Assembly: GCA_002245135.1 (NCBI GenBank)
Contig: NGBS01001175.1
Location: forward strand, 94,197-158,196
Length of the DNA: 64,000 nucleotides
From: Proteromonas lacertae
Lineage: Eukaryota; Sar; Bigyra; Opalinata; Proteromonadidae
Direction of reading: 5' to 3'
Each line of letters begins with the position of its first letter. Positions within the stretch are counted from its first letter, which is position 1. Of the stretch, positions 1 through 49,693 are shown piece after piece. The translations under genes were made by a program, and so were the position numbers. Below the pieces are notes generated by a model. That model had not been told where the DNA came from and did no database searches. It saw only the letters and a program-made list of their open reading frames with translations.

Positions 1-3000
1 AACTAATTATATTGTTAATAATGTCTAAACTTGTATCAGAATCATTCTTTTTAAAGGGAGTATGTTTAGTATAAAGTTCATATAATAAAATACCCAAACA
101 CCATATATCACATCGATAATCATGTCCTTTACAAGTTACCATTCGAGGTTCCATATACTCAGTATCTATACACAACGTAAAACTGTGATTCTTTTCTATT
201 TTACTGTTTAATAAATCACAAAATATTATATTTCCATTATTATCGATTGATAATAAACTTGGAACAAGTGATCTTACCATTATATGATTATCATAGAAAT
301 GTTTTAATTTACAAATTATACTACAGAATATATATTTTATCTCATTTTCTTCTAAGTTATCTATTGATTTTATTAAATTTTCAAGGTTAGAGACTATTTT
401 TACATTAAACAAACTATAAATGTTATTTTTATTATGAAAACTACCGATATAAAATACAGTATCGTAATTGATACTATAATAGAAATAGTTAGTATATAAT
501 AACTTCTCTCTATTAATATTTGTCTGGATTTTATTTTCTCTTATTTTATCAATAGAAGTTATTCTAATTGTTCCTAAACAATAACTATTTTTATTTCTAT
601 AACTATAATAACTATGATAACTAGTATTATATAGTGGATATATCAATTCTATATCATTTATAGACAATTTGTGTAAGTTATTTTCTTTGATATATTCATT
701 ATATTTTAGTTTATGGTCAATTGAAATTAATCGTTTATTATTAATAGATTTTAATTTACTCTCAATTTCAGGATAGTATGTTTTTATATACTTCTTTGAA
801 AGAATAAAACATTTTACTTTTGTTAGAGCTATATACTTGAATGAGAAATTCTTGTCATTTCCATTAACAGCTGTAGAAAAGGAATATCCGAAGTATTGAT
901 AAGTTCCTAATCTTATTAATTCACTATAATAATAATAATAATAATATAAATATAAATATAAATATATATATATACATTTGTTGATTTTCATCATTTTTAG
1001 AATTGTTATTTTCATTCATTTCTTTTGTGTTATCATTATTATTATTATTCAATATTGTAAACTCACCTCTACTATTATTATTGCCTTTCATCACAACTAC
1101 ACCTTCTGTTACAAAGTATATATTATCATTATCTTCATTTCCATTATCTTCTATTATAATATCATTCATTTTAAACACTTTTTCTTCCATATTATTATTT
1201 ATTTCTTCATAATCTTTCTCTTTTAAACTATTAAAACAACGATTTCCCTTCAAAATATTGATTTTTTCATTATAAATATACTTCAAAGCAACACTTCTAA
1301 AAGGTGTTTTACTTATTACATATAATTCACCATCTTCTAAACATTTTATTTCATTATTATTTATTCGATCATACAATAATTCAGTATCACCAAAACTTGG
1401 AAAAACATTATTCAATACTTTATATTCAAAAATAATCTCATTATTATCACTATCTTTGATTATTAAACAATATTTCCCACTGATGGCTATATAAAACTTA
1501 TCACATTTCATTTCACTGTTTATTAACACTTCATCTTTAGTTGATTGAACAATCACTACTTCATTCACTAAACCATTAATAATTTCATCACTTAAATTCT
1601 TAAATATTATCTGTGACTTTAGTGCTTTATATATTTTATCTTTATATTCAGGAATACCAGTATATTCACTTCTCAAATGATATTTCATCTCAATTTCATT
1701 CAAACCTATCATTGATATATTACTATGATAATTGTAGTTATAATTATAATTGTCGGGATTTCTTACAGGTTTTTGATCTAAAGTTATTTGACTACCAATT
1801 CTTGTACGATGATTCAATATTATATTACTGACATTATCAACAGCAATTCTTTTAAAATCACTTATCTTTATAACAATTACTGTTATATCATCACTTTTAT
1901 TGTCATAATGAAGCCATAGATTCCTACTGTCACTCACTATATTTTGGCATGCTTCTAATACAGTTGAACTATCTTCAACAATGTTAATAACCTTTTCATT
2001 TGTTAGGAATTCAAAAACACCATCACTTGCAATAACAAAATATTCATATTCCTCATTCAAGTTTCTTATAAATATCTCTGGATCACATATTACACCTATT
2101 GATTCACCTAATTTATCACCTATACTTCGACTATATTCACAACCAGGTTCATTTTTATCTTTCATCCATATTCTACATCTATCTCCATCATTTTTCATAT
2201 TCTTTAAATCGGATGGTAATAAATCTCTACTTACTTCATTATGTTTTTGTCCAATAGTCAAAATTTCTGCACCACATTTCAATAATCTTTCATATTCATC
2301 TTCTCTATAAGGACTTTGATCAATCGAAAGATTCAAGGCTTCTAAATGATAATTCTTATTTGGATTGATTGTATAGGATAATGAAGATTGTGTAAATTGG
2401 TTTGGATGTTGGTTTTGACTTAGTTGTTGTGGATTTTGTTTGTTGTTGTTGTTGTTGTTGTTGCGGAGGTATTGGTTGTATTTTACATTGTATATAAGGA
2501 TGTATCTGTAATGATTGAGCTCTACTTTGTCTGTATGAAAAATCTTTACTATTATTCAATAAACTAGCTTTATGACTATTGTCATTATTATTATTGCCAT
2601 TTATACTGCATTGATTCATTATTAATGATTTTGATGTATCTTTGTTATTATAGCTATTATTACAACTATTTGGTCTACTTCCACTGTTTTTGTTTGTATT
2701 TATGAATTTATCATTTTCTAATTTTATTCCACAGATTGCTCGACTATCACCTACATTAGAGATATATAAGTCACCTTCCTTAAATAATAAACATACTGCT
2801 GTTGTGCCACTCATTGTCTAATTATAAATTAAAAAATAAGAAATATATATATATAAATACATCATCTATATATTCTTCTTCTAAATCTTCATTATTCATT
2901 GAATGTAATTGTTCATTTATTGTGTTATATGAATCTCTTATTGCTTTTATTGGATCTATTTCATAATACATACTTGTCTTTATTTCATTTGGCAACTATT

Positions 3001-3566
3001 GATTAATTAGAGAATAAAATATACATTTTTACCTACAAAACTACTACATTTTTCACCATATTTCCCATGACCATCAAATACACCAAATAAAATACTATTA
3101 TTTTCTCGATTACTATCTTTGCCAAAATTTTTCTCAAAGATATAATAATCTTGATTAGCTTTACTACTACCTCTCTATTAACAATAAATACAAGTAATAA
3201 ATATACAGATTCTTTAAATCCACCAAGACTTAAACAACAAAAATCGAGTTTATATTCACAGCTTTTACATTTTACTACCTGAGTGTCCTTTCGTATCTCT
3301 ATTATTTGATTACGTCTATTGGAAGGGCCATTACTGAATAGGTAAGAGTTTAGCGAAGATTTTGTAGTTAGTTTTTTAAATTGTGATGAACTTTTATTTG
3401 AACCCCTCATAGAACTAAAATTCTTTGGTGTTGTTTGTGATTTTTTAGGTGATTTTTGAGAAACAATCTCTTTCATCTCTTCTTCACCAGATCTATCTTC
3501 AAAATCTTTGACATATTTATTGTTCATTAATTCAGCTGGTAATAAAGATGATTGAGTACATCCCAT
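1..3566 (-). CDS. PP2C phosphatase / cNMP-binding / pseudokinase fusion protein (3' end beyond window)
   Basis: Start chosen at the ATG at 3566 because it gives MGCTQSS, an N-myristoylation-type N-terminus. Spliced exons (introns about 3175-3206, 2996-3024, 2818-2860, 924-975) give a PP2C domain with FGVFDGHG, SNVGDSRAI, IASDGVFEFL and SDDITV, so the metal-binding acidic residues are kept. Next come one or two degenerate cyclic-nucleotide-binding folds (about 1000-1700) and a kinase-like domain. That domain has VRSLVPSLL where active kinases have YRDLKPENL, and CDLL instead of DFG, followed by an APE-like segment and HDYRCDIWCLGILLYEL. It therefore looks like an active phosphatase fused to a pseudokinase. 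The architecture matches the PP2C/cNMP/kinase proteins known in plants, stramenopiles and ciliates. The reading frame changes in the Gln/Asn-rich linker (2420-2550). A small intron or an indel could explain this, and I could not settle it. The coding sequence continues past position 1. Confidence 0.85.
2441..2463. repeat. TTG/CAA trinucleotide run in the PP2C gene
   Basis: A perfect run of TTG units on the plus strand encodes Gln (or Asn in the neighbouring frame) in the linker between two blocks of the PP2C domain. The upstream and downstream blocks lie in different frames around this run. Confidence 0.8.
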
Positions 3567-15328: not shown

Positions 15329-18300
15329 CTATTTCTCTTCTTCTTCTTTATCATCTTTTTTATCTTTATCTTCTTCTTCTTTTTTCTCTTCTTTTCTTAT
15401 ATTTAAATCTGGAGCAATACTTGGATCAAAACTAAATCGACTTCCCACACTTTTTACTTCATTCTTTTCAACATATAAGTAAAGAGTATCATCCATCTCA
15501 TTTATTTCATTCTTACATAGTATTCTCAACTTATAAAAAGATAAAACTTCATTTCTACATCCACTTATTATTCCTGTTTTACTATCAAGTTCAATTCCAG
15601 ATGGTAATTCTATTAATGAATTAATCACAAGAATTATTATACCTTCATCTGATGAAAATGAACAATATAAACCATCACATTCTGGTTTGATTTTAAATGG
15701 CTCATTTATTTTATATCGGAAATTATTTGGAGGTTTGGGATATACGAAATGAGTAATACCTCCTACTGATATTCTAATCTGTTGAGTTGATTCATATAAA
15801 TCACTTTTACATGTTACTGTATATTCAGTTGATTCTAATGGAATATCATATTTACCTTTGATTATTCCATTGTCTGGATCAAGAGATATACCTTCTGGTA
15901 ATGCTATTAAGATGAATATATAACTAAATACAAGGATTAATAGTGAATGAATAACATTTATCAAATAATACTGGAATAATTTCAAAACTTTCTTCTTTCT
16001 TCAAGTTCTTTTCTTTACAAGGATATTTGAATTTTGGTGATGCAATAACAGCGAATGAAATCTGAATGCTTAATTCATTTACTTCATTTTTACATGTTAT
16101 TGTATATTCAGTTTCAGTATGCGGTTTTAAACATTTACCTTTGATTTCTCCACTTCTATTATCAAATTTTATACCTTCAGGTAATTCTATTTATAATAAT
16201 CAAAGGCTATATATATACCTGGTTCTATTGAAAATTCACATTCTCCACCATTATACTTTGGAGAGAAATAAACATCATCATTTATATATCTTTTTATATT
16301 ATTCTTTCTATATGATAATTCTGTTAATTCTCCCATTAATAATACAATACTATATTCTAATTCATTACATCCATTTTTACACTTCACTATATATTTTGTT
16401 TCTTTTTGAGATTTTAAACATTTTCCCTTTATTATCCCAGTTGAATTATCCAACTCTATACCTTTAGGAAAATCTATTCATATTAAATTCTCATCTATAC
16501 CTGGTTCTACTGAAAATTCACATTCTATACCATCATATTCTGGAATTAAATGGATATCCTCCTTGATTTTAAGACATTTACATATATCTCCATACACACC
16601 AAAATATCTATCATTTACAGTTTCATTTACATCTTTATATTCAAATTTTGTTATTTTACCTATTGATATTGTTACATTTTGTTTCATTTCATTTGTTTCA
16701 TTTCTACAAGTAATTGTATATTCAGTTTGTTTAGATGGATGTGAAGATTTACCACTAATTCTTCCATTTGATTTGTCTAACTCTATACCTTCAGGTAAAT
16801 CTATTATATTTAATCTAAAATCTATAAAATACCTGGGTTAACTGAAAATTCACATTCTTCACCATCATATTCAGCAGTTAAATTGATTTCTTCGTTGACT
16901 TTCATTGTTTTATTTGAATTTCCATACCAATAATTGATTTCTCTATAGGCGAATTGAGTCAATTCTCCCACTGAGATAGTTACTATTTGTTGTAATTCAT
17001 TTGTTTCATTTCTACAAGTAATTGTATATTCAGTTCTTTTAGATGGATGTGAACATCTTCCTCTAATTATTCCAGTGTGATTATCTAATTCTATACCTTC
17101 AGGTAAATCTATTTATAATAAAATACAATCTATAAAATACCAGGTTTAACTGAAAATTCACAATTTCCTCCATCATAATCAGCACTTAAATTGATTTGTT
17201 GGTTTATTCTGTAAATATTGTTCATAGAATTATATGAAAATCTTGTCAATTCTCCAACTGATATAATAATTCTTTGTTTTATTTCATTTGTTTCATTTTT
17301 ACATGATATAATATAATCTGTTCTTTTAAACAATTTTGAACATTTACCTTGGATTATTCCACTTTCCCAATCAAAAATAATACCATCAGGTAAATCTATT
17401 TATTATATGGTAAAATCCATTAAAATACCTGGTTCAATTGAAAAAACACATCCTCTACAATCATTATTTGGAATTAATTTGATTTCTTCATTTAGTTTTA
17501 GATTTTTATATTCACCTCTGCAATAAGACATTTGATCTTGATATGAGAATTGAGTCAATTCTCCTATAGATAATTTGATTCTTTGTTGCAATTCATTTGT
17601 TTCATTCTTACATGTTATTGTATAATCACTTGCATTATGTATTGTTTTACTTCTACCTGTCATTCTTCCAGTTGAAGGATCAAGTTTAATGCCATCAGGC
17701 AATTCTATTTATTGATTAATTATTTATAGGTAAAATATACTTGGCCAAATAGTAAATTCACACATTTCACCATCATAACTAGGCATTGTATTGATTTCTT
17801 CATCCACATTTACTTTAATATTATTATATGAAAACTGTGTTAATTCTCCAACTGAAAATGTTACATTATGCGATAATGTTTTTGTTTCATTTTTACAAGT
17901 AATTGTATATACAGTTCTTTTAGAAGGTCTTGAAGCTCTTCCTCTGATTGTTCCACTAGACTGTTCTACTTCAATACCATCAGGTAAATCTATTCATTAA
18001 AGTAGATAAATATACTTGGAGAAACAGAAAATTCACACATTTCACCATCACATTTTGGAGGAATGCTAATATATTCATTAACTTTGTAACTTTTGTTAAT
18101 AGCAACTTCATAATTATAATATTCACGACGACGTCTATAGTATCTATAATCTGTTATTGTTTCTGTATATGAAAACTGTGTTAATTGTCCGATTATAATA
18201 TATATTGTTTGTTTCATTTCGTTTGTCTCATTTTTGCAACAAATTGTATATGTTGTTCTTTTAAATGGATGTGGACATTTTCCACTGATTGATCCGTTTG

Positions 18301-21300
18301 ATATATCGAATACTACACCATCAGGTAAATCTATTTATTACATTATAATATTCCACATTATACCTGGTTCTATTGAAAATTTGCATTCTTCTCCATCACA
18401 TTCTGGAACTAAGTTGATTTGCTGATTTACTCTGAAACTATAGTTGGAAGGGTTATATGAAAATTTGGTCAATGCTCCAACAGATATAATTACACTTTTC
18501 TTCATTTCATTTGTTACATTCTTACATGTAACTACATATTCTGCTTCTTTATACATACTTTTACATCTACCTTTGATTATTCCAGTTAAACTATCCATTT
18601 CAATTCCTTCAGGTAGTTCTATTCATAATATATAATTAACATACCTGGTTGAATAGAAAATTCACATTCACCACCATCATAAACAGGGATTAAATTGATT
18701 TCTTCATCAAACTTAAGGTTTTTGTTTATATCATAATAATAATTGTTATTATATGGATAACGATTATTTCCATATTCTGTATCTTTATATGCAAACTGTG
18801 TTAATTCTCCAACAGATATCTTCACTTTTCGATGAATTTCATTTGTTACATTTTTACAGATTATTAAGTATTCAGATTCCTTAAATGGCTTTGAACATCT
18901 TCCTCTTATTACTCCATTTGATCTATCAAATTCTAAACCATCAGGTAAATCTATTCATTCATTAATAAATGCAAATATATACTTGGCTCAATCATATATA
19001 TGCATTTTGAACAATCACATTGTGGAACTAAATTGATTTCTTCATTTAATTTGTATTTGTTTTTTTCAGAATTGTATGAAAATATTGTTAAATCTCCAAC
19101 TGATATTGTTACTCTTTGTTTCAATTCGTTTGTATCATTTCTACATATTATTGTATATTCTACTGCTTTCCAAGGTTCTGAACAACTACCTTTAATTATT
19201 CCATTTTCATTATCTAATTCTATACCTACAGGTAAATCTATTCATTATTATTCATTCAAATATACTTGGTTCAATTGAAAAGTTACACATTTCACCATCA
19301 TAATCAGGTATTAGATTGATTTCTTCATCAATTTTAGCTTTGATATTCTTTGAATAATATTTGAATTGAGTTAATTTTCCAGCTGTTAATACTACTACGT
19401 ATTGTAATTCATTGCATATATTCTTACAAGTTATCTTATACTCAGTTTTCTTTAATGAATTTAAACATCTTCCTTGAATAACTCCAGTTGATTCATCTAA
19501 CTCAACACCATCAGGAAATTCTATTTATAATTATTAATTCTATGAATTATACTTGGCTCAACTGAAAATACACATACTCCACCATCATGCTCAGGTATTA
19601 GATGAATCTCTTGATTGACTTTTAAATTCAAAATTGTTTTTAACACTTTTCTTTTGAGTTTTTCATTTTCATCACTTTCACTCTCGATTTCATTATCATT
19701 ATCAGAATTTGGATTTTCTTCCATATTCTCTTCTTGTTGATTTTCGTATTTGAAATAGGAAAGCGGAGAAACTGCTATTGTCAATTCATAACTTAATGCG
19801 CTAGTAGGATTTTCACATTCAATTTTGTATGTAACAAAATTCATAAATTTGTTAGGAATTCCACTTATTACTCCTGTTAATCTATCCAAACATAAACCAT
19901 CAGGAAGATCTACAATTATAATAACAATTGAATATTATATATACATGGAGTTACTCTGTAAATACAATTCTTTCCTTTTATGTTTGGTTCAATTGAACAA
20001 TTCTCATTAATTTTGAAATTATATTCTTTTGGTTTATCTTTTTCAACAGTGAGAGAATTATCATATGAAGAAATTGTTTTGAATTTGGCTTTTGATATAT
20101 TCTCCATTATACTTTTATAATCAGAGGAATGTAAATATTCATTTGATATTATTTTCTCCAATAATTCATCAGATAATATTGTCTCCAGTAAATCATCAGA
20201 TACTTTCTTATCCAATAATCCATCGGAAATAATTTTCTCCAATAATTCATCAGATATTTTCTTCTGAATATTTAACGCAAGAATATATGCTATTGTATAT
20301 TATATATAAGATTAATACGAGTATAGAAATAGCTTAAACATTTGATGATTTTATCATTCTCTTTATCATCCTCTTTTCCATATTCTTTCACAATTTCTTT
20401 TATTAATATCATATAATCTTCTTCACCGATTAACTCTATTGCAAAACATTATGAGAATATATATATATATATACCATTTATATCGCCTTTTATATGACAT
20501 ATTAACAATAAACAAGCAATCTTGAATCTTATATTCATATATTTTAAATATTTCTTCAATATCTTTTGTATATCTTTATTATGTAAATATGTTATTAGTT
20601 CATCTGTTACTGATGTAAAACAGGGTGTATCATAGTAATATTCTTTCAGTAACTCCGTTAATTTTTCATCATTATTAATTTCAGGGAAATCTTGAATATA
20701 AATTCTGTTTGAAAGTAGCTTTGATTCATTTTGATATTTCTTAAACATTTCTTCATTTATCAGTTCTGTTGGGTTTTCATCAATCATATTCCAATTAATT
20801 CTATTCCAATTGATATTTGGAAATATTCTTATCTTAAAATCATCAATTAATTCATTTTCATCTTCATAATATTGTTTTATGTTTTTGTAATACTCAAGTA
20901 AAGATTTAAATAGTTTTTCTTCGTTATCAACTTGCAGACAAGGAATTTTCAGTATATATTCAACTGACGGGACAGTCAACTCCTTTAATTCTGGAGATAG
21001 TAATATTTTATTTGCTGTTGTTGAGAAAATTTGTTTGAGTAAAATTTCCAATTCTTCCAAAGCAGCTGAATTTGAATAACTAATTAACTGGTATATGTCA
21101 TTAATCAACTGGTTGTTAATTATTTCTTCGAGACATTTCATGCATGAAGGGATTAGTCGATTATCACCATAACATACACAAAAGGAAAGAATACCAATTA
21201 TATTATCACCATCCAGAGTAATCTCTTGACCACTGTAAAATCGATTGATATATTTCATACAAGCAGGATTTACTTCATAAGAAAGAGAAAGAGGATCACT

Positions 21301-21658
21301 ACATAATGGATCATTAATCAATGATTTAAGCATCTCATTTTGGTAGGATAATATGAACTTGAAACTCTTGATATTTGTATCTTGTATTTCAAGAGTTATA
21401 TCGCCAAATCCTTTTTCTAATAATTCATCGATTTTCCTATTATCATATTATACACTACGAATATACAAATAAGGAGGAGTTTTGTGAATGAACTCACTTA
21501 CTTCCTCATGCTTTTCTGACAATGTTTTCATCATCGATTCTACTGATTTTTCATTCAGAATCACATTCAACTTACCTCGACCATATTTCTTTTCAAACAC
21601 TTTAATTCTATATTGTATGCTGTAAATAATCAATATACTCTTCTTCTATTATACTCAT
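15329..21658 (-). CDS. BTB-BACK protein with about 15 putative-Ig (He_PIG-like) repeats
   Basis: The start at 21658 (MSIIEED) joins through a 19-nt intron to IQYRIKVFEKKYGRGKLNV. A BTB domain follows (GFGDITLEIQDTNIKSFKFI, KYINRFYSGQEI, IIGILSFCVCYGDNRLIPSC) and then a BACK-like region (ELTVPSVEYILKIPCLQVDN). After a linker of DELLEKIISDG-type repeats there are about 15 units of roughly 90 residues, each opening LPxGIxLDxxTGxIxG and continuing TEYTITCKNETNEL, ISVGELTQFSY, NEEINLIPEYDGGECEFSIEP. Each unit is one exon, and all introns between units are phase 1 and 28-36 nt. The C-terminus is Lys/Glu-rich. There is no signal peptide, so it is probably intracellular despite Ig-like repeats and conserved Cys. 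BTB-BACK proteins often recruit cullin-3, so the repeats could be substrate-binding. That role is inference. Confidence 0.8.
15330..19910 (-). repeat. Tandem exon array: about 15 putative-Ig units
   Basis: Units begin (plus coordinates, right end) near 19910, 19519, 19234, 18948, 18616, 18328, 17989, 17702, 17392, 17106, 16798, 16472, 16182, 15904 and 15608, a spacing of about 285-390 bp. Each unit carries LPxG at its start and SIEP or SVEP at its end, with a short phase-1 intron between. DNA similarity is moderate, so the array is not freshly amplified. Confidence 0.82.
20140..20275 (-). repeat. Short coding repeats, DELLEKIISDG type
   Basis: About four degenerate 10-11 residue units (DELLEKIIS, DGLLDKKVS, DDLLETILS, DELLEKIIS) link the BACK-like region to the Ig-like array. 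On the plus strand, TCTCCAATAATTCATCAGAT recurs. Confidence 0.7.
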
Positions 21659-38070: not shown

Positions 38071-41000
38071 TCAGCTTCTAAAAACAGTCCTTACACATTC
38101 TGTAGTGTGTTTAGGATTCTCCATTAGATCATTGTACATATCTTTCAACTGTTGAACATCTGTATTTACTTCTATTGTAGATAATTTCTTAAGTCTCTCG
38201 TTCAATATATTGAAAATTGAATTTCTGAGATACTTCTTAAATCTATGAACATCCTTCTCAATTTCGTTATTTTCCTTCCTTAATTCAGACAAAGATAATG
38301 TTGTGTAGTCTGATTGTAAAAACTGTTTCATTTTCATAAATGAATCATTATCAATAAGACCATCTAGTTTTTCAATATTCTCATCAACAATTTTCACTAA
38401 ATTCTCTAATGAAGCTTTATTATAAGCCATTAAGTCGAGAATAATCATCCTGTTTATATTACCAGCTTCTTCTGAAAATTTATATGCGTTAGAGATTGTA
38501 TCTAAGTTATGAGAAGCGTTAATGAACTCTTGTATCTTCAATTTCAGCTTTAAATCTTCCACTTTAAATCTGTTCTCTTCAATTTCCTTTTTATTGAGTG
38601 TATAATAAGTAATATAGGATTTTATTAAGGAATTTAAGTACATTTGTTTCGCATTATCGATTCTTATATATTCCGAGAATTTTATATCCTTATTTTCTAA
38701 TAGTGGAATGTTTTCATTAATAAAACTAGAAAATTTATTCTTTTCTCCACTATCTGGTAAATTCTTAATCTCATTTTCATACTTCTTGAGTTTTCCCTTC
38801 AACAATTCACATCTGTGTGTAAGAGAATCATTTACTTGCGATTTACAATCTTCAATGATGGAATTGATTATTGATCCATCTGTTTCTGTTTTTATCTTCT
38901 CATTATTGCTGTTTAACATCTTATATAATGAATGTAAAAGTTGATCATCAGGATTTCTATCTTTCAATTCTTTGATTTGTTTATCTCTAATATTTAATAA
39001 AAATATAAACAATAATATATATATATATAAATATATACATATATGTATGTGTAGATGTATTTGTTTTGTTTATTTCAGTTGTACTTTTCAACAATAATGA
39101 TCCATTAATCAAAGACTATTCAATTAATAACAAACATTTATATACGTTAATATCTTCACAATAAGAAACTAAAGATCTTCCTGGTCTTTCAATTTTCACT
39201 TTTATCTGATTAATTCTTCTTCTAAAATCATCAACACAATCCATTATTTCATTATCCTCTTCACAACCATCTTCAATATTATCACATTCATCTTCATTAT
39301 CAATTCTAACAATAATAAACAATAACAATATATAATACACTAAAATATTCACTTTATCTTTTGCACATTGTAATACATATTCATAATCATCATTACATTC
39401 TCTAAACTTCTTAAATAACTCAACAACATCTTTATCACTTATGGAGATTAAATGATCATTTTGAAATGTTTGAATTGTCTTGTAGAGATTCTCTTCTGGA
39501 TCTATTTGTTTCAAACTCAAATCAATATCATCTCTATTTCATTTTAAAAACAATAAACATCACTATATATTTATACTTTATCTTCTTTATCTTATTTTGA
39601 TAAAATGGAATTGCTTGTTTAGTTTCTCTTTCTATATTGCTTCTTGTTTCATAAATCTCTTTCAGGTTTTGATAATGGTTGTTTATTGATAGTTGTGATA
39701 TTTTTATTATTGTCTTTAATGTACTTAATCGGATATAAGGAGGTAACTCTTTCTCAATTTCTGGTATTACAGTTTCTAATTCTGATAGATATTGCTTGAA
39801 TAATTCATGTTCTATTTTAACTATATCTTTGTAAGGTGTATATGTTTTCTATATTATATAATATTACAATAAATGTATTATTATTATTATACATTATAAA
39901 TTGAATATAACTCATCAATATCTTCAGGAAGTATTGTTGGTATTTCATCTAACAATTTTCTTATCTTTTCTTTCAATTCTAATGGCAATAACTTGAATTC
40001 CACATCATTTCTTATCTGATTAAAATCATTTTGAAAATCCTTAATAATTGAATGGAATTGACTGTTTAATTCGTCAAATTCCTCATTCACTTGTTCAAAA
40101 GTAACAAATGTGTGGATATATGTTAAAACTCCATTCATATAATCAGTCATAAAGCCAATTGATTGGTAAGGTAAATGTATAATTGTTTGAAGTGATTTCT
40201 GATAATGATAACTATCAATAATAAATAATAATAACAATAATATATACATTTTATTCTCTAAATCATTTCTTCTTGACATTATACTGTTATAGTTATTATC
40301 ATATGAAATAAACTCATTTTCTTTCTTTTTTGAATCATCTAAAGATAATACAGCTATAATTAACTCCAATTTCCTTTTCAATAATTCATATTCTTTCACT
40401 ATCTCTTTCAATATTCTCATTATATTTGGGGCATTATCATACGATATTGTTGAATCAGATATTAGTGTATAAAACCTCTGCATTATTATACATAATCTTG
40501 ACAAACCAGCAGCTTGATAATCTTTCCACTTATTCTCCATCTGAACTAATGTTATTTCTAAAGAATCTTGAAATGATATTTCTGTAGGTTTATTTGGTCT
40601 ATAAACATTGATATCTTCATCATCAGATTCTGAATCTGTAAAAGCACTTTCACCATCTATCTTACTATTTCCACTAGATTTTGTATCAACCATCTTTTCA
40701 TCTTTTGTTTCATTACCTTCGTCATCTTTCTTTTCATTATTCTTTTTCTCTATTTTACTATGATTATGTTGATTCTTTGGTTTTTCTTTCATCATCTCAT
40801 TCAAATATCTCACTTCATAGGTTAAACATTCAGATACTTCTTTAATCAGTTCAGGATGAGTGACTTGTATTTCTGATTGATTTATCAAACATAATGTATC
40901 AAATATATCTAAATACTTCATTTCTATTTCAGATGGCTAATAATTTCATTTCAAATGGATAACTATAATTATTAAATAAAACAACAATAAATATACTCAT

Positions 41001-43324
41001 AATTAACACTTTTCACTTGCTTATCTTCCTTATAATAGTAATTCCATTTTCCCTCTTTGATTAAACCATAGTAACTATTTCCATTACTTATACATTCATC
41101 AATATTTATACTCTTATTCACTCTGTTTTCATTGTTTATTGATTTTAAATATTCTTCTATTGTTGTTTGAAATAATGGAATTCTTGAAGTTCCACCAATC
41201 ATTACTACTTCTATTAATTTCTTCTCTTCATCATTCAATTCACTTTCTTTTATCAATGTGTCAATTCCATTAGTCAATTCATCATCAATATAACTTGTAT
41301 TAATAATACCATTCAATTCCTTATTATGAAATGTTCCTTCAAAATTATCATCTCCTAAATCAATAGAATAATAAACAAAACCACAACCGCTTGATAATTT
41401 TTCTTTTATATCAATCACTTCTGATTTTACTCTTAAATATAATATACTATTCTCACTTGATTCAATATTGATGGATGTTTTAGCAAATATTAATGATTTG
41501 AAATAATCTATTATCAAATTATCAATTCTTCTACCTCCTAAATTACTAATTGTTTTTATTTTCAATACTTCCACATAATCACTGTTAAAACTACTCAAAC
41601 ATAGGTTTGTATCTAAATATCCAATATCAACGAATAATTCAATTCTATTGGTTGTTTTAGGTGAATAGTTGTTGGTTTAAATATGCATAATTCAAATTTG
41701 TTGATAAATACTCTGGAATTATTTCAATATTCTCAAAACCATTACTCTTATAGATATTTCTTAATAACTCAATCTGATATTCGTTATAGTAAACTGGAAC
41801 TGATAAAACACAATTCAAATGTTTGAAATTGTATTTATTCTTCATTATATCGTATATATGCTTGGAATAACAATAATATAAATCAGTTATTGATAGTGTT
41901 CTTTCACCAAGAGGCATGTTTAATCTAATTACAATATTAATATCAATATATATACTTTAAAACCAATTGATCCATCATTCATTCTACATATTGATTCAGG
42001 GAAATGATTCTTTTCAATATTCTCTACATCTGCATACTTTCTACCAAATAAGTCTTTTATATCTGTTATAACATTCTTATAATTCTTACTTATCTATAAA
42101 TAAAATAAAGATGAAATGATATATACTCTATTATTCACACCAAATAGACGATTATTAGAAAACTCAATTGATACTCTATAATATAATTATAATAGCTTAA
42201 AATATACATTTCTTTATCTAAAAAATAATTAACATTCGTCAATGAATCATTTCCACTCATTTTAAAACTATTTCCACCAAAATCTACACCAACTGTAAAA
42301 ATATTCGTTTGTGGAAGGTTATGCAAATCCATAAGTTGTTTTATATCACATTCTAAACCATCAAATACCTGCAATAACACCTCTTCTTCTGTTGTTTCAT
42401 CATCTGGTAAATAAAATACATTACATTCTATTAATGAATTAAAGATTATTATAAATCTATACTATCTAATATTCTTTCTATTTTATCAAGCGATAATCTT
42501 TCTTTTGGATTTGCTCTTATTATCATTTCTAATAACATCTTCAAGCACAAATTACCTATCTTCTTTTATCTTGTATTTACACAGCTTTATTTCTTCACTT
42601 GTTACATTTGAATCAAATAAGTCATTTCCAACTAGAAACTTGTATATTATCAAACCTAAATTCCATATATCCGTTTCATAGCTTATTTCCTTATTCTCTA
42701 ATTCTTCTGGACTTGTATAATTCAAACACTTTTTTCTTCTATTTGTTCTTACATTATTAATTCCATAATCACAAAGCAATATTCTATCTCTCTTTTCATG
42801 GTATAATATATTGGATGGATTTAAATTGCCATGCATTATTTGTTGACTATGCAACTGCTTCAATCCTTCACAAATTTGGATTAAGTAACTAATAGAGTCT
42901 GTGCTAATATTCTCTGCTGGATTTAAAGATGAAAAAATAGTATAAGAAAATCTTACTAACAGGAACGCATCTTCTATATACAACATTTTTGAGTAATATG
43001 CAATATTATCTCCTTCTAATTGCAATATTGTATTCTCCTAATCCATATAAACAATAATAAAAATACTAATCTAGCTAAAGCTTTTTTTGAACATGAGAAT
43101 TCAAACAATTTCATCACTCTTTCTTTTCCATCATCATATGTGCGATAAGGACGAACTTTACAAGTAATTTCATTTTTCAGTAGATATAAAACACCAACAT
43201 TCTAAAAGATATACAGCAGAAATACTCTATAATTCACATTTTGGTCGAGATTTGTCTAAACAAAATAAAAATGATAAGATACAAATTGATATTTGTATTT
43301 AGCAATTTCTTTAAAGTCAAGCAT
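38071..43324 (-). CDS. Pseudokinase / Hsp70-ATPase / coiled-coil fusion, copy A
   Basis: The start at 43324 (MLDFKEIAKYKYQF) follows an upstream element and has two short introns in the same places as copy B. The kinase-like domain (42470-43090) has ICEGLKQLHSQQIMHGNLNP, LLCDYGINNV, YTSPEELENKEISYETDIWN and ANPKERLS. HRD is HGN and the catalytic-loop Lys is Asn, so catalysis is unlikely. The Hsp70-like domain (40980-42380) has TVGVDFGGNSFKMSG, DIKDLFGRKYADVENIEKNH, CVLSVPVYYNEYQIELL, LFVDIGYLDTNLCL, SNLGGRRIDNLII and EVVMIGGTSRIPLFQTTIEE. The GTT and GGGT nucleotide loops are altered. The rest (to 38071) is Lys/Glu-rich helical coiled coil, with no Hsp70 substrate-binding beta domain. It is probably a scaffold. 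Exact C-terminal splicing is uncertain. Confidence 0.8.
41042..41213. repeat. Near-identical tract shared with copy B (47392-47563)
   Basis: By eye, 172 bp match the paralogue with no difference. The tract encodes the Hsp70 adenosine-motif region from MIGGTSRIPLF to GLIKEGKW. Flanking sequence is strongly diverged. Confidence 0.85.
41951..42083. repeat. Near-identical tract shared with copy B (48353-48485)
   Basis: About 133 bp with two differences. The tract covers an exon end and the intron donor, encoding KNVITDIKDLFGRKYADVEN to DGSIGFK. Confidence 0.85.
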
Positions 43325-43333
43325 TTTTAAATA

Positions 43334-43346
43334 AGCTTGGCTTGCT
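43334..43346 (-). promoter_or_regulatory. CAAGCCAAG-type upstream element
   Basis: Plus-strand AGCTTGGCTTGCT lies about 10 bp upstream of the copy A start at 43324. Confidence 0.4.
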
Positions 43347-43417
43347 TTTCATTTTCAAATTTCAAAATAAAATTATGCTTGATCTAGAAAAATAATTTAA
43401 AAACAAACATCTTAAAT

Positions 43418-46400
43418 TTAAGATTCAGGAAGATTTTCATCTTCAGTCGAATTATTATCTGGTTTGAATGTCATTTTCACTTTTGAACCTGAACGCTGGT
43501 GTGGTGGTGGTAAAGGATTAGATGTTGGAGGAGTTTGTGGTGGTTCAATTCCATCAAACAATTCAACACTTGATTTGATTGGAAAACTCCCTTTTCTCTG
43601 TAAATGAGAAGACACTGATCTTCTATAAGATGTTATTAACTTTGAAGAAGATCTGCTGGTTTGAGAAAGTGAATGCAAAGGATTTTCATTCATGAATCAC
43701 TTTATTCTTTGATAAGTTGGTAGATTTGATATTTCTCCTGATCAACTTCTTCTTCTTATTTCCTTTTTCAGATGTAGGTAACATGGGAGTACTAACTTTC
43801 TCATAACTAAACAAAGTATCACAGACATCAAACAAAATAGAAAATGTAACAGTATTTTCTTCCATTTTTTTCTTTAAATCATTCTGAAGTTCAACATTCT
43901 CCAGTTTGGTCAAATGTACATCAAATTCTTGTTTTACTCTAAGTATTGATGAGTTATACATCTTTAATATCTCTTTAGAATAAGTTTTCCAATCTTCATC
44001 TTCATGTTCATCATTATTAATCTGAGAATATTCATCCAATTGACTTAAATAATATTCATTATAACAATCAATTATATTATAATAATTAATTTCATTTAGA
44101 TGTGATATTGTGTCAATTGTTACGGATTTATAGTAATCTATTACTGACTGACGATATTTTGTGAATGTTGATATTAGTTTTGATATTTCATTCTCTTTAT
44201 ATTGTTTTATGTGTTTTGAATTTTCATTTTCATCAACAAATGTAATACATTTCAAGATTTTAGCAACTTTATTACTATTTAATAATAATAATAATATAAC
44301 AATATATATATATACTAATATTCTTTTATAAAATCATGAATAGAATCACAGAAATATTGATGTAATTCTTTCATATCTACAATTGATAATATTACATCGA
44401 GTGAAGCTTTCTTATCATCCTTATTACTGTATTTATCAAATAATTCTTTATATTTCAAAACATCTTTATTGTCTAGGAATGAGAATACTTCTGGAGTTGT
44501 ATTGAAGTAAAAAATAAACAATTGAATTATTTTCTTTTCCTCTTCTATCTGTGATTTTAATTCATTCTGAGTGTCTAAATACATATCTTTTACTTCCAAA
44601 TAACTCTTAATTAAATCAGTTGAAGCTATTCTTTTATTAGATCCTTTATTGGTAAGTATTGATTGATATTTCTCTATTAGTTTCTCTAAAACTGGATATT
44701 TCTCTTTAAATTCAACTAATTGTTCTACAATTGGAGTACTACAGTATAGTCATTAATAAATATTATTATATACATATAATTATTCACATTTTCAGTAATG
44801 GAATCTCTCAATTTGGTTATTATTTTCTTTGAATCATCTAACTTAGTTTCTAATACATCAAATTTGTATTTGGTAAAATCATCATCTACATAATTCTGAG
44901 CTTCTTCTAATGGAACATTTTCTAATATTACACTCAAATATTCTTTATTTTTCATAATGAGATTCAAAAATTCATTCAATTTACTTTTCTTTTTATTGCA
45001 TTTATCAATCAAAATCCTTTTATAAAAGTCACAAGCAGCTTTATTCACAGAAAATGTTTCTGAAATTGAATTTGGTTTTGTGACTCTTTGATAAGAATTC
45101 ATTAATTTCATCTTTCAATTCTTTATCATCTAATCTATTACTAAGGTTTATTAATTTGGATTTATAACTCTCAAATGATGTTAAATATGATTGTATAATC
45201 TGCTCACTTCTTTTCAATACATCATTTTCAATAACAATTAATTGCGATAATCCAAGTGTTGTATTTTCTAACATGTTTAATATTGAATTAGAAAATTGAT
45301 TAAAATCATCTTTAATGATTCTTGGTAGGAGTTGTACTTCATCATTACATTCACTAAGATAGGTAATTAATTCACTCTTTTTAGTTGCTATTGTATCTTC
45401 TCTTCTTTCAACTATTTCATTATATAACTTACAGTTTTCACCGAATGAATGAATCATCATTAATCTCATTTCTGCTTCATTTAGATAGTTACTAAGACTG
45501 CTGAATGTGTCTGATTTCATTTCTTCATTGATTAATTCCTCTTTTATTGATTCTCTATAATATATATGAATGTATGAATAATACATTAAATTAGGTAACT
45601 AATGCTGTGATGGTTTGAATTGAATTCTGACTGTAACTTGTTAATTTCTATATATTACAATAATAATAATTATAATTATTCATACGTTTAAATCTTCACA
45701 ATATGATATTAGAGAGTGATGATCATCATCCACATTTGATTTGACATTTTCAACTATTCTTTTATATTCCACAAGACATGGAATATTTAGATTCAAATTA
45801 CCCACATTTGTATTGAAATCTTCACTATATATATATTTATAAGAAAAAGATAAAACAATTATAATACATCAATAAAGACAATCTCTTCTTTGTCATTTTT
45901 AACAATTTGTTAAAATCTTCATATATTGACATATTCCTATTTATATCATCACTTACATTCAAATTCTGTCTTTGAAAGGTTGGATGAGTAGTTTGAAACT
46001 TAATAAATTCCATTTTCAATTCTTTTTCATTCTCTAACTTTGGAACACATTCTTGTATTTCATTTCTATTAAATCAATAAATAGTATATAATATATAATA
46101 CATATATTTAGTCAATTGTTCGTGATATTCATTATTTGTCAAATTCGCTTTTTCATTCAATTTCATGCAATATTTCATATATTGACTTCAGTGTATTATA
46201 TTTTACTTCAATATTATCAGCTACAACTTCAATAACTTTATCCTAGTTCATTCATTTTAATACTTAACTCTCTTCTTTTATCAAACATATCCATATAATC
46301 TGATACTTTTTGAGATAATAACAACTTTCCATCATGAATAAGCTGTGAGTATTGTGGTTGTACTTGAGAGTATATATCAGCCAATTCAAATATTGTAGTA

Positions 46401-49400
46401 GGTAAAGGATTTGGAAATATATTAAACAATAATTTCAAAGTATCTTTTTGAGGCTTGTGATATATATTCACATTGATAATCATATGCAATACTGTTTCTA
46501 TACAATAAATATGAGATAAAATCATTATACTTCATCTTTTTCATATCTTTTCCTAGCAATTCAACAACAGAATTCAATTTTGTATTGAGTGCTTGTATAA
46601 CATATTCAATATCATCTAATTTGGATAAAAAGTGCAATTGAGTAGGTAATATCTGAAGATATCTTGATAATTCATTTATATATTCATATTGGCAATCTTT
46701 GAATGTTTCTATCACTGACTGATTCTCATTTCTAATAAAAATGATATTAAAAATATAATGATAATACATTTGTGTCTGTAATTCAGCTATTTGTAACGAA
46801 TATAATTCAGCATTCTTATCATATTCAGATAGTTTCTCTTCCATTTCTTTCGAATGTTCTAATAATGGTTTTGTTTTGACTATATCAATATGACTATGGA
46901 AATAATCAAATTGCATTTCTATTAACGACAGTATTTCACTCATTTCATTCATTCCATTAACTTCTGTTTCTTCTTCAATTTCTTCTTTTACTGTATTGTT
47001 GTTATTGGATATTATTTCCTGTAGATTATATGATATTGTGTATAATTCCAATAATCCTTCATTATCTTCATATTCTAACCACTTTGAATTTATTTCTTTT
47101 AATAATGCTTCAATTACTTGTTTTTCTATATTATCACTATTATTATTATTATTATTATTATTAAAATGTTTCTTTAAACATGATATTTGATGTTTAATAC
47201 ACTTTGCTAATTGAATTAAATCAATATTTGTAAAATCAAAACTTTGTTTATTATTACTATTATTGAGAGTTTTAATCAAATAATAAGTATTTAATATCTT
47301 CATAAACAATGAATTAGGTTTAGATGGTAAAGAGAATGACTTTTTAAATGTTTGTATTGAATCATATGATGGTTCATTCACAATTGTATATTTCCATTTT
47401 CCCTCTTTGATTAAACCATAGTAACTATTTCCATTACTTATACATTCATCAATATTTATACTCTTATTCACTCTGTTTTCATTGTTTATTGATTTTAAAT
47501 ATTCTTCTATTGTTGTTTGAAATAATGGAATTCTTGAAGTTCCACCAATCATTACTACTTCTACTGATTTCTTCTCTTCATCATTTAGTTTTGAACTGTT
47601 TATTATCTCATTTAACGATTTTGTCAATCTCTCTGTAATTAGTTTGGATGTTATTAATGTGTTAAATTCATTATATGTAAAAGAATAATCAAATACATTA
47701 TCATCTAAAGTGATATGAACTTTCAACTATTGAAAATAAAACCAAAAAATATATATTTATACAGAATTAGTTATTTGATTTGATAGTGATTCTTTCAGTT
47801 TAATTATTTCATTCTTTACTTTCAAATAATACCTTGGCACTTCATATATATTGACATTACATGAATCTTTAATCAATTTATCAAAATATTCCATCATTAT
47901 ATTATCTATCTCTTTACCTCCAAGATTATTAATAAACACATTATTCACTATCTCTAAACTATTTCTTTTGTATTTATTCAAACTAATTGTTGTATTCAAA
48001 TAGCCAATATCAATTATAAGCACCAATTTACCAACTGTATCTCTCAAATACTTTGAATTCATTTTATAACCATAATATAATGCTGTTGAAACATATTCAG
48101 GAATAAAATAAACAGTATTAAATCCATTGTAAGTGAATATTTGTCGAATTATCTCTATATCACTGTTTGTATAGTTTGATGGAGTTGATAAAATGCAGTG
48201 GATATTTGAAGTGGAATATTTAGTGGATAGATAATTGTGAATATTATGAATATAACCATACAATATATCACTAATATTCAATTCAATTTCACTACCATTT
48301 GAATGAATAAACTATAATAATAATAATAATAACATAAATATATATATATATATATACTTTAAAACCAATTGATCCATCATTCAATCTACATATTGATTCA
48401 GGGAAATGATTCTTTTCAATATTCTCTACATCTGCATACTTTCTACCAAATAAGTCTTTTATATCCGTTATAACATTCTTATAATTTGATGATTCACTGT
48501 TTACTTTACCAAATAATCTGTTATTTGTATAATCAACAACTACTTCAGTCTTCTTTTCATTATAAATATTCTCAATGATCATTGGAATTGAATTCTGATT
48601 GGATGAATCATATCCACTCATCTTTATATATTTTCCACCTAAATCAATTCCAACTGTCATTTCATTTCCACTGGAAAACAACTTCTTTTCATCAATACTC
48701 ATTCCAATACCTTTTAAGGTGTCTCTTGTGAAATTAAAATCGCTAATATTCTCAGATTTATCTTTATTAATATCTATAAAAACAATAATATATATATAGA
48801 AAATTACTATTCAACAATGATATTATAATATCTAAAGATATTCTCTTAGAAGGATCTGTATTAAGCATGCCTATTAATAAAGCTCTAAAATAACATGGAA
48901 ATGATTTATCTAAGTTATAATTACACTCTATTATCATCGAATATATTTCATTAAAACTCTTTCCTTTGAATAAAACATCTCCATTTGTTATATAATAATA
49001 AATAACACAACCATAACTCCATATATCTGAATTATTACTTAATTCACAACTTTTTAACTGTTCAGGACTGTAATAATTGATATTTTCTATTGAACAACTA
49101 CGTAGTTCATTAATTTCATAATCTGATAGTAAAATATGACTTTTATCATCTGTTAGTATGATATTAGATGGTTTTAAGTTCCCATTAATAATATTTTGAG
49201 AATGTAACTGTTGTAAACCTTCTCCAATTTCAACTAAATAAGGTAGTATAGTAATATTCAAGCTACTCTGGTCTGAAGATATACTAGGGAGTAAACAACC
49301 CTCTGCTGCATAAGATCTAATTATAATAAACTGATGCTTGTCAGTAATAAGGGATTTTGTTATAGGAAGAATTTTGTCACCACATTGCAATGACATATTA

Positions 49401-49693
49401 TTTTTCTATTAAATTATTACTAAAATATACAATTTTTTCTAATGTATCTGTTGGAAGTTCTGATTTCAGTATTTTCAGTATATAATCCTTTCCTTTCTTC
49501 GATTTTGTATTCTTCACTTTGCATGTCAGTGTATTTTCTGATACTGTAAGCGTTTTACAATTCTAGAAAGTAATTATTTGTATATACGCTAAATGTTAAA
49601 CTTGAATCAATTGCTGTCTGATAGATACATATATATATCGAAAAAATATACAAAATCATATTTTAATCCTGAATAATGTCTTAAACTTTGCAT
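43418..49693 (-). CDS. Pseudokinase / Hsp70-ATPase / coiled-coil fusion, copy B
   Basis: The start at 49693 (MQSLRHYSGLKYDF) joins through introns of 34 and 25 nt to TAIDSSLTFS and NCKTLTVSENTLTCKV. The kinase-like domain has IGEGLQQLHSQNIINGNLKP, LLSDYEINEL, YYSPEQLKSCELSNNSDIWS and TDPSKRISL. HRD is NGN and DFG is DYE, so it is a pseudokinase. The Hsp70-like part (47400-48702) has TVGIDLGGKYIKMSGYDSSN, CILSTPSNYTNSDIEIIRQI, LVLIIDIGYLNTTISL, NLGGKEIDNIMMEYF and VMIGGTSRIPLF. About 1100 residues of charged coiled coil follow. The gene ends in a Ser/Pro-rich tail (RKGSFPIKSSVELFDGIEPP ... DENLPES), whose junction may be a 61-nt intron. The order of parts equals copy A, so this is a tandem duplication. 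Confidence 0.8.
47392..47563. repeat. Near-identical tract shared with copy A (41042-41213)
   Basis: Ungapped partner of the copy A tract at a constant offset of 6350 bp. It begins shortly after the divergent coiled-coil exon and ends inside the Hsp70 adenosine motif. Confidence 0.85.
48353..48485. repeat. Near-identical tract shared with copy A (41951-42083)
   Basis: Partner of the second copy A tract. It includes the GTATA donor of the adjacent intron, while the intron interior differs. Confidence 0.85.

Follow-up and report, generated by a model that had tools for sequence, protein, structure and literature searches.

Two described systems are close to the genes reported here: Sse1 grips Hsp70 with its nucleotide-binding domain (NBD) and its helical bundle, and MLKL-type pseudokinase adaptors couple a nucleotide-binding, non-catalytic kinase fold to a helical effector. 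Within the window, a stretch of 64,000 nucleotides (C681:94197-158196) from an assembly of 50.2 Mb in 1181 contigs, two adjacent minus-strand genes, A (43324-38071) and B (49693-about 43418), encode a pseudokinase followed by an Hsp70-type NBD and a long heptad-periodic tail (Table 1). Together with a third copy, F, they resemble Hsp110/Sse1 (HSPH) in the line of the NBD, in a degenerate phosphate-2 motif (DIGY/DMGY) and in the adenosine motif; however, all three have an N-terminal pseudokinase, a very long helical tail and no substrate-binding beta domain. The kinase fold and helices of A and B recall MLKL, which in contrast has no Hsp70-type domain. The same order of kinase and Hsp70 NBD was found in P0042, an 830 aa protein of a Bacteroidia MAG (Pkinase 3–210, HSP70 304–784), although P0042 keeps the catalytic-loop Asp (HSD) and its Hsp70 profile match runs to position 451. 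P0042, with both domains, was one of the matches (14 and 41) given by protein searches (5.8 billion proteins; 8000 and 7997 candidates scored). Among 19 pattern-matching stretches in one scan of genome contigs no relative of it was confirmed. We found no description of pseudokinase-Hsp70 fusions in the open-licence literature, an absence of little weight, and the terms 'hsp70' and 'heat shock' do not occur in a paper on the accessory domains of oomycete kinases (PMC3019232). A sequence-only reading of this DNA had named no known characterised system with this build; the kinase-Hsp70 order, at least, is also that of P0042.

Table 1. Coordinates of the pseudokinase-NBD genes and their parts (window positions unless a contig is named).
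Feature	Position	Strand	Remarks
Gene A, pseudokinase module	42463..43324	-	exons 43324-43283, 43255-43226, 43201-43067, 43037-about 42463
Gene A, kinase/NBD intron	42428..42462	-	35 nt, phase 1
Gene A, Hsp110-type NBD	41017..42427	-	DFGG, IKDLFG, PEYLS, DIGY, GGTSRIP
Gene A, long heptad-periodic tail	38071..40923	-	five introns placed as in the tail of F
Gene A, tract 98% identical to B 47389-47585	41039..41235	-	gene conversion-like
Gene A, tract 96% identical to B 48337-48486	41933..42084	-	gene conversion-like
Gene B, pseudokinase module	48808..49693	-	exons 49693-49652, 49617-49588, 49562-49431, 49405-48808
Gene B, kinase/NBD intron	48774..48807	-	34 nt, phase 1; hand splicing
Gene B, Hsp110-type NBD	47388..48773	-	end computed from exon lengths
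Gene B, helical tail	43418..47387	-	3' part modelled in pieces
Gene F, third pseudokinase-NBD-tail copy	C88:199007-about 194218	-	Pkinase 34-239 (E 2.1e-18), HSP70 304-700 (E 1.9e-38)
L053, class 2 fusion	C391:18443-22174		678 aa
L054, class 2 fusion	C1119:370657-374388		678 aa
L058, class 2 fusion	C1119:312758-316435		at least 585 aa

Gene A runs from an ATG at 43324 to a stop at 38071, and profile searches with PF00069 and PF00012 matched its kinase exon (E 3.8e-21) and its NBD exon (E 1.1e-19). Gene B was spliced by hand into seven exons, the four of its pseudokinase module and 48773-48358, 48311-47763 and 47726-46422, with introns of 25–46 nt that are all GT...AG; from 49693 to 46422 these exons form one 1023 aa frame through both domains (Pkinase 43–261, E 1.5e-21; HSP70 308–699, E 8.7e-41). 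The HSP70 part of B is an NBD only, since the match spans profile positions 2–378 of 599. The two genes are identical at 300/673 positions of the kinase-NBD part and have six DNA matches, the longest two (197 nt and 152 nt) being so similar that they resemble gene conversion. Exon 1 measures 42 nt in A, B and F and likewise in K, a pseudokinase-coil gene. A phase-1 intron sits precisely at the kinase/NBD junction of A, B and F and is also present in K. Exon structure, profile matches and heptad period thus bear out the order kinase-like domain, Hsp70 NBD and coil that the sequence-only reading had proposed for two adjacent genes, and the first exon and junction intron confirm the exon pattern that it saw conserved in both copies. 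The pair has company, in that the genome also contains the fusion F, the single-module sister genes K and H, and a second class of pseudokinase-Hsp70 fusions.

The kinase-like domain matches PF00069 in A, B and F and has lost its catalytic residue, which agrees with its earlier designation as a pseudokinase. In place of HRD, the catalytic loop reads HGN in A (HGNLNPSN, with DYG), NGN in B (NGNLKPSN, with DYE) and HSN in F and K, so that Asn stands for the catalytic Asp, while the Lys of VMK (A) and of ILK (B) is retained. Twenty kinases of this genome were aligned, drawn from the best-scoring relatives and not as a random sample, with near-identical copies dropped. At the HRD Asp, 17 of the 20 carry Asn, two Gly (L060, L067) and one Asp (L062); L064, outside this set, has Ser. 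The DFG Asp is kept in 20/20, the DFG Gly in 3/20 (A, F and K) and the VAIK Lys in all 15 sequences that cover it.

By its residues and matches, the kinase of A and B is a member of a larger pseudokinase family of this genome with varied partners. A search of the genome with the F kinase gave at least 119 matches at E <= 1e-8 among the best 150 of 1021 candidates, some of which may be ordinary kinases; PF00069 itself has 131 matches (best E 3.9e-79). Partners recognised by profile are thioredoxin-like (L057, PF13905, E 4e-43), LRR (L068, E 4.4e-14), the Hsp110 NBD (F, and L017 in reverse order) and the Hsp70 NBD (L053, L058), while LRR-like repeats in L048, L050, L059, L061 and L034 and a second pseudokinase in L055 were read from the models by eye. 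In L057 (C713:99951-103667) the pseudokinase is joined to thioredoxin-like domains. L017 (C706:33535-37341) displays an Hsp110-coil part and then a pseudokinase in one predicted 877 aa frame, which may represent either a third arrangement or a pair of separate genes. A phase-1 intron closes the kinase module on its 3' side in A, B, F, K, L052-L054 (near-identical copies), L058, L062/L063 (copies) and L068; in L050/L051 a phase-1 intron lies about 30 aa further on from the kinase end, and none was found at the kinase end in the models of L048/L049, L055/L056, L057, L059, L060, L061, L064, L066, L067 and L017. Such a boundary would fit, short of proof, the swapping of partner exons among some family members.

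The sequence-only reading had spoken of an Hsp70 NBD with a coil in the place of the substrate-binding domain; the NBD without a substrate-binding domain stands, but its line is that of Hsp110. The best PDB match of the NBD is SSE1 (E 7.4e-26), followed by SSB1 (E 7.3e-21). In an unrooted tree, A, B, F and L004 fall inside the Hsp110 group of this genome, with its Hsp110-like protein L021 and Blastocystis Hsp110 (100/99), while seven Hsp70-line sequences, including L053 and L058, form a 100/100 group. Residues are named here by homology to bovine Hsc70, as read in the alignment. The NBDs of A, B and F keep D10, K71, E175, D199 and the GG-RIP adenosine motif, and these class 1 proteins therefore look able to hold ATP; they lack T13 and the Hsp70 phosphate-2 GGGT loop, and have DMGY/DIGY as in Blastocystis Hsp110. 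As judged by tree and best PDB match, the NBD of A, B and F derives from Hsp110. No substrate-binding beta domain was found after the NBD, where the HSP70 profile match ends at 378 of 599; the genes thus lack the NBD and substrate-binding domain pair of an Hsp70 chaperone, and belong to Hsp110 by NBD grouping but not by the beta domain. In L021 (C1160:313318-317388) the NBD is soon followed by a helical bundle, apparently without a beta domain, and by a Q-rich tail; its relative P0056 also seems to have no beta domain.

The second class of fusions (L053/L054 and L058) shares with A and B the order of pseudokinase and NBD, the missing substrate domain and the phase-1 junction intron. In contrast, its NBD is of the Hsp70 line and the protein ends directly after it, with no coil. 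The NBDs of L053 and L058 retain D10 and E175, but K71 has become Gln and D199 has become Asn; L053 is also altered in its adenosine motif. Class 2 thus looks disabled in both pockets. When A, B, F, K, L053 and L058 are constrained to be monophyletic in the kinase tree, the log-likelihood drops by 25 units (AU p 0.0153). This p value is weakened by the choice of the tested group after the kinase tree had been seen; five long-branch sequences were left out of the tree used, and deep kinase nodes are weakly supported. The separate NBD lines, Hsp110 and Hsp70, strengthen this result, and the pseudokinase-NBD fusion probably arose twice, independently.

In the tails of F and A the mean power peaks at 3.5 residues, and this period exceeds 95% of shuffles in 37/46 windows of the F tail and 25/59 of the A tail, compared with 0/14 in the F kinase and 6/25 in the F NBD as controls. 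By its sequence period, the tail has the long heptad stretches of a coiled coil. When the helical-bundle model is built from Hsp110 together with members of the genome's own family, it scores 18.7 bits in A, 16.5 in F and 1.5 in B, the best of 1000 shuffles reaching 10.2; L021 matches the bundle with E 6.2e-20. With an Hsp110-only model none of the three stands out, A (8.6 bits) and F (8.7) scoring below the best shuffle (10.8) and B likewise not separated. The A and F tails may retain a faint remnant of the C-terminal helical bundle of Hsp110, in A at about 40340-40210 (place computed). The earlier claim of a coil where the substrate-binding domain should be was right in kind, except for this trace.

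The array at C88:209797-194218 holds an Hsp110-coil gene (H), the pseudokinase-coil gene K and the fusion F side by side, spaced by 116 and 159 nt in our models. F and K are nearly identical in the kinase C-lobe (95% over residues 70–243), as are F and H in the NBD (dN 0.02, dS 0.04), which fits recombination within the array. Eight of the ten aligned A introns match F in residue and phase (244/1, 341/2, 357/0, 882/2, 988/0, 1089/2, 1200/0 and 1221/2), the junction intron among them; three lie in the kinase/NBD part, the other five in the tail. The remaining A introns are 53/0, close to 56/0 of F, and 711/0, which has no partner. B and F have 590/0, 1089/2 and 1200/0 in common in the alignment, the B junction intron coming from hand splicing.

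The existence of H and K raises the possibility that each locus consists of two adjacent genes, a pseudokinase gene and then an Hsp110-coil gene. In-frame ATGs lie 1–35 codons ahead of the NBD in A, B and F, and array neighbours are separated by just 116 and 159 nt. An independent start of the NBD part is therefore conceivable, and spacing is uninformative as to one gene or two. Such a split nevertheless appears very unlikely, given the GT-AG intron of identical place and phase in A, B and F and the open frame 5' of the NBD, which is coding-like upstream of the first ATG (log-odds +7.8 in A, +5.4 in B and +15.7 in F, a few intron bases being included). In L053/L054 the stretch from the preceding stop to the NBD lacks an in-frame ATG, and the NBD exon therefore cannot begin its own gene at that point; L058 has such an ATG, 25 codons upstream. 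Introns and frame thus support, short of proof, the earlier view that kinase and NBD do not belong to separate genes, and in A, B and F they are in all likelihood one gene. Frame breaks are seen at ~42554, ~41952 and ~41659 in A, at ~46505, ~46243 and ~46155 in B (the aligner lists five, two of which fall on hand-spliced introns), and at C88 ~196880 in F, in the second half of an NBD that otherwise lies in one frame with the kinase; no Hsp110-type fusion is therefore proven intact. The first break in A could be a 25-nt GT-AG intron, although a true break is equally likely there because the residues are kept in the alignment to F and B. A and B might then be decaying pseudogene copies in a recombining tandem array, a fusion real in ancestry whose protein is no longer made. 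Splice-aware alignments show no break in H, L004, L009, L020 or L053/L054, nor in K over kinase residues 69–243, and the kinesin gene beside A and B is a single unbroken 684 aa frame. On the other hand, C88:198-210 kb is nearly duplicated on the small contig C541, which has five breaks over about 590 aa while gene H of C88 has none, and some contigs of the assembly therefore probably contain indel errors. L015 and L027 have a single break and L029 has two, with one stop besides in L027 and one in L029; L058 has one stop, upstream of its open model. The dN/dS values, with dS saturated in most blocks, are 0.26–0.27 for three A-F blocks, 0.27 for one A-H block, 0.42 for F-B and 0.42–0.58 for A-B blocks, and point to past constraint on the kinase and NBD parts. 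We consider decay possible but the less probable outcome.

Two further explanations grant the protein a conventional activity. It could be a functional co-chaperone that serves Hsp70 as a nucleotide exchange factor in the manner of Hsp110 and is targeted through its pseudokinase and rod, as the Hsp110 line of the NBD and the bundle signal in A and F would allow, both being parts with which Sse1 grips Hsp70. The bundle signal is however absent in B and hangs on a model that includes the genome's own sequences, while the class 2 proteins terminate directly behind an NBD of the Hsp70 line, which makes this role improbable, though less so than a split into two genes. Activity of the kinase through an unusual catalytic loop is the least credible proposal of all: Lys, DFG Asp and loop Asn are kept, but Asn takes the place of the catalytic Asp in A, B, F and K, as in most of the aligned relatives, and few sequences retain the DFG Gly.

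We favour, at roughly even chances, the reading of A and B as single multi-domain genes making catalytically silent, nucleotide-gated scaffolds, a proposal drawn from residues and build. The pseudokinase, which keeps the ATP/Mg-holding residues (VAIK Lys, DFG Asp, loop Asn) and has Asn for the HRD Asp, would most likely be without catalysis and serve as a docking module. The Hsp110-type NBD would be an ATP-closed clamp, perhaps gripping Hsp70 the way Hsp110 does, and the tail a long helical rod that would oligomerise or space the other modules. The family would have originated by joining a pseudokinase exon set, ending at the phase-1 intron, to different partner exons. The idea of a nucleotide-sensing scaffold thus survives in part: a scaffold does seem likelier than a chaperone or a signalling kinase, while 'nucleotide-sensing' is an extrapolation from the retained residues. 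Gene build, family, residues and junction intron are apparent in the genomic sequence itself, and they describe a real and unusual gene build, a variant of pseudokinase and Hsp110 that sits within a wider, more interesting family. More tentatively, the genome may use combinatorial paired pseudo-enzymes, in which a silenced kinase is combined, partly via one phase-1 intron, with interchangeable partners (LRR, coil, Hsp110 NBD, disabled Hsp70 NBD), with two independent kinase-NBD joinings giving two-pocket scaffolds, possibly for recognition or local Hsp70 recruitment. Two unrelated ATP-binding folds lie here in one polypeptide, both apparently without their usual catalysis, in a pairing with probably two origins within one genome. 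Provided that the proteins are made, they offer a natural test of the selection of pseudoenzymes as nucleotide-gated scaffolds and of how Hsp110 turns from chaperone partner into building block; the family would also be a case of partner exchange at a fixed-phase intron in a compact, intron-rich protist.

The window is AT-rich, with short GT-AG introns (n=92 in our gene models, median 39 nt) of mixed phase (35/31/26 for phases 0/1/2), and a tRNA scan found no tRNA. The top matches of L021 are two sequences at 92% identity; among named sequences Blastocystis sp. comes first (E 9.4e-86), followed mostly by oomycetes. Given these matches, the unrooted NBD tree and a gene model in the window that we take to be CEP104-like, the organism is a stramenopile near Blastocystis and probably ciliated. 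Elsewhere in the assembly, C139:253121-255514 has two HSP70 NBD matches, each in a 1021 aa open frame, apparently the same one. In the window, the minus-strand gene at 24-3566 encodes PP2C and cyclic-nucleotide-binding domains; its model continues with a kinase-like part, apparently without HRD as judged by eye. The 19-exon minus-strand model at 15329-21658 has a BTB-like start and a long series of similar Ig/He_PIG-like repeats (domain names by eye), several of its exons measuring 255 nt.
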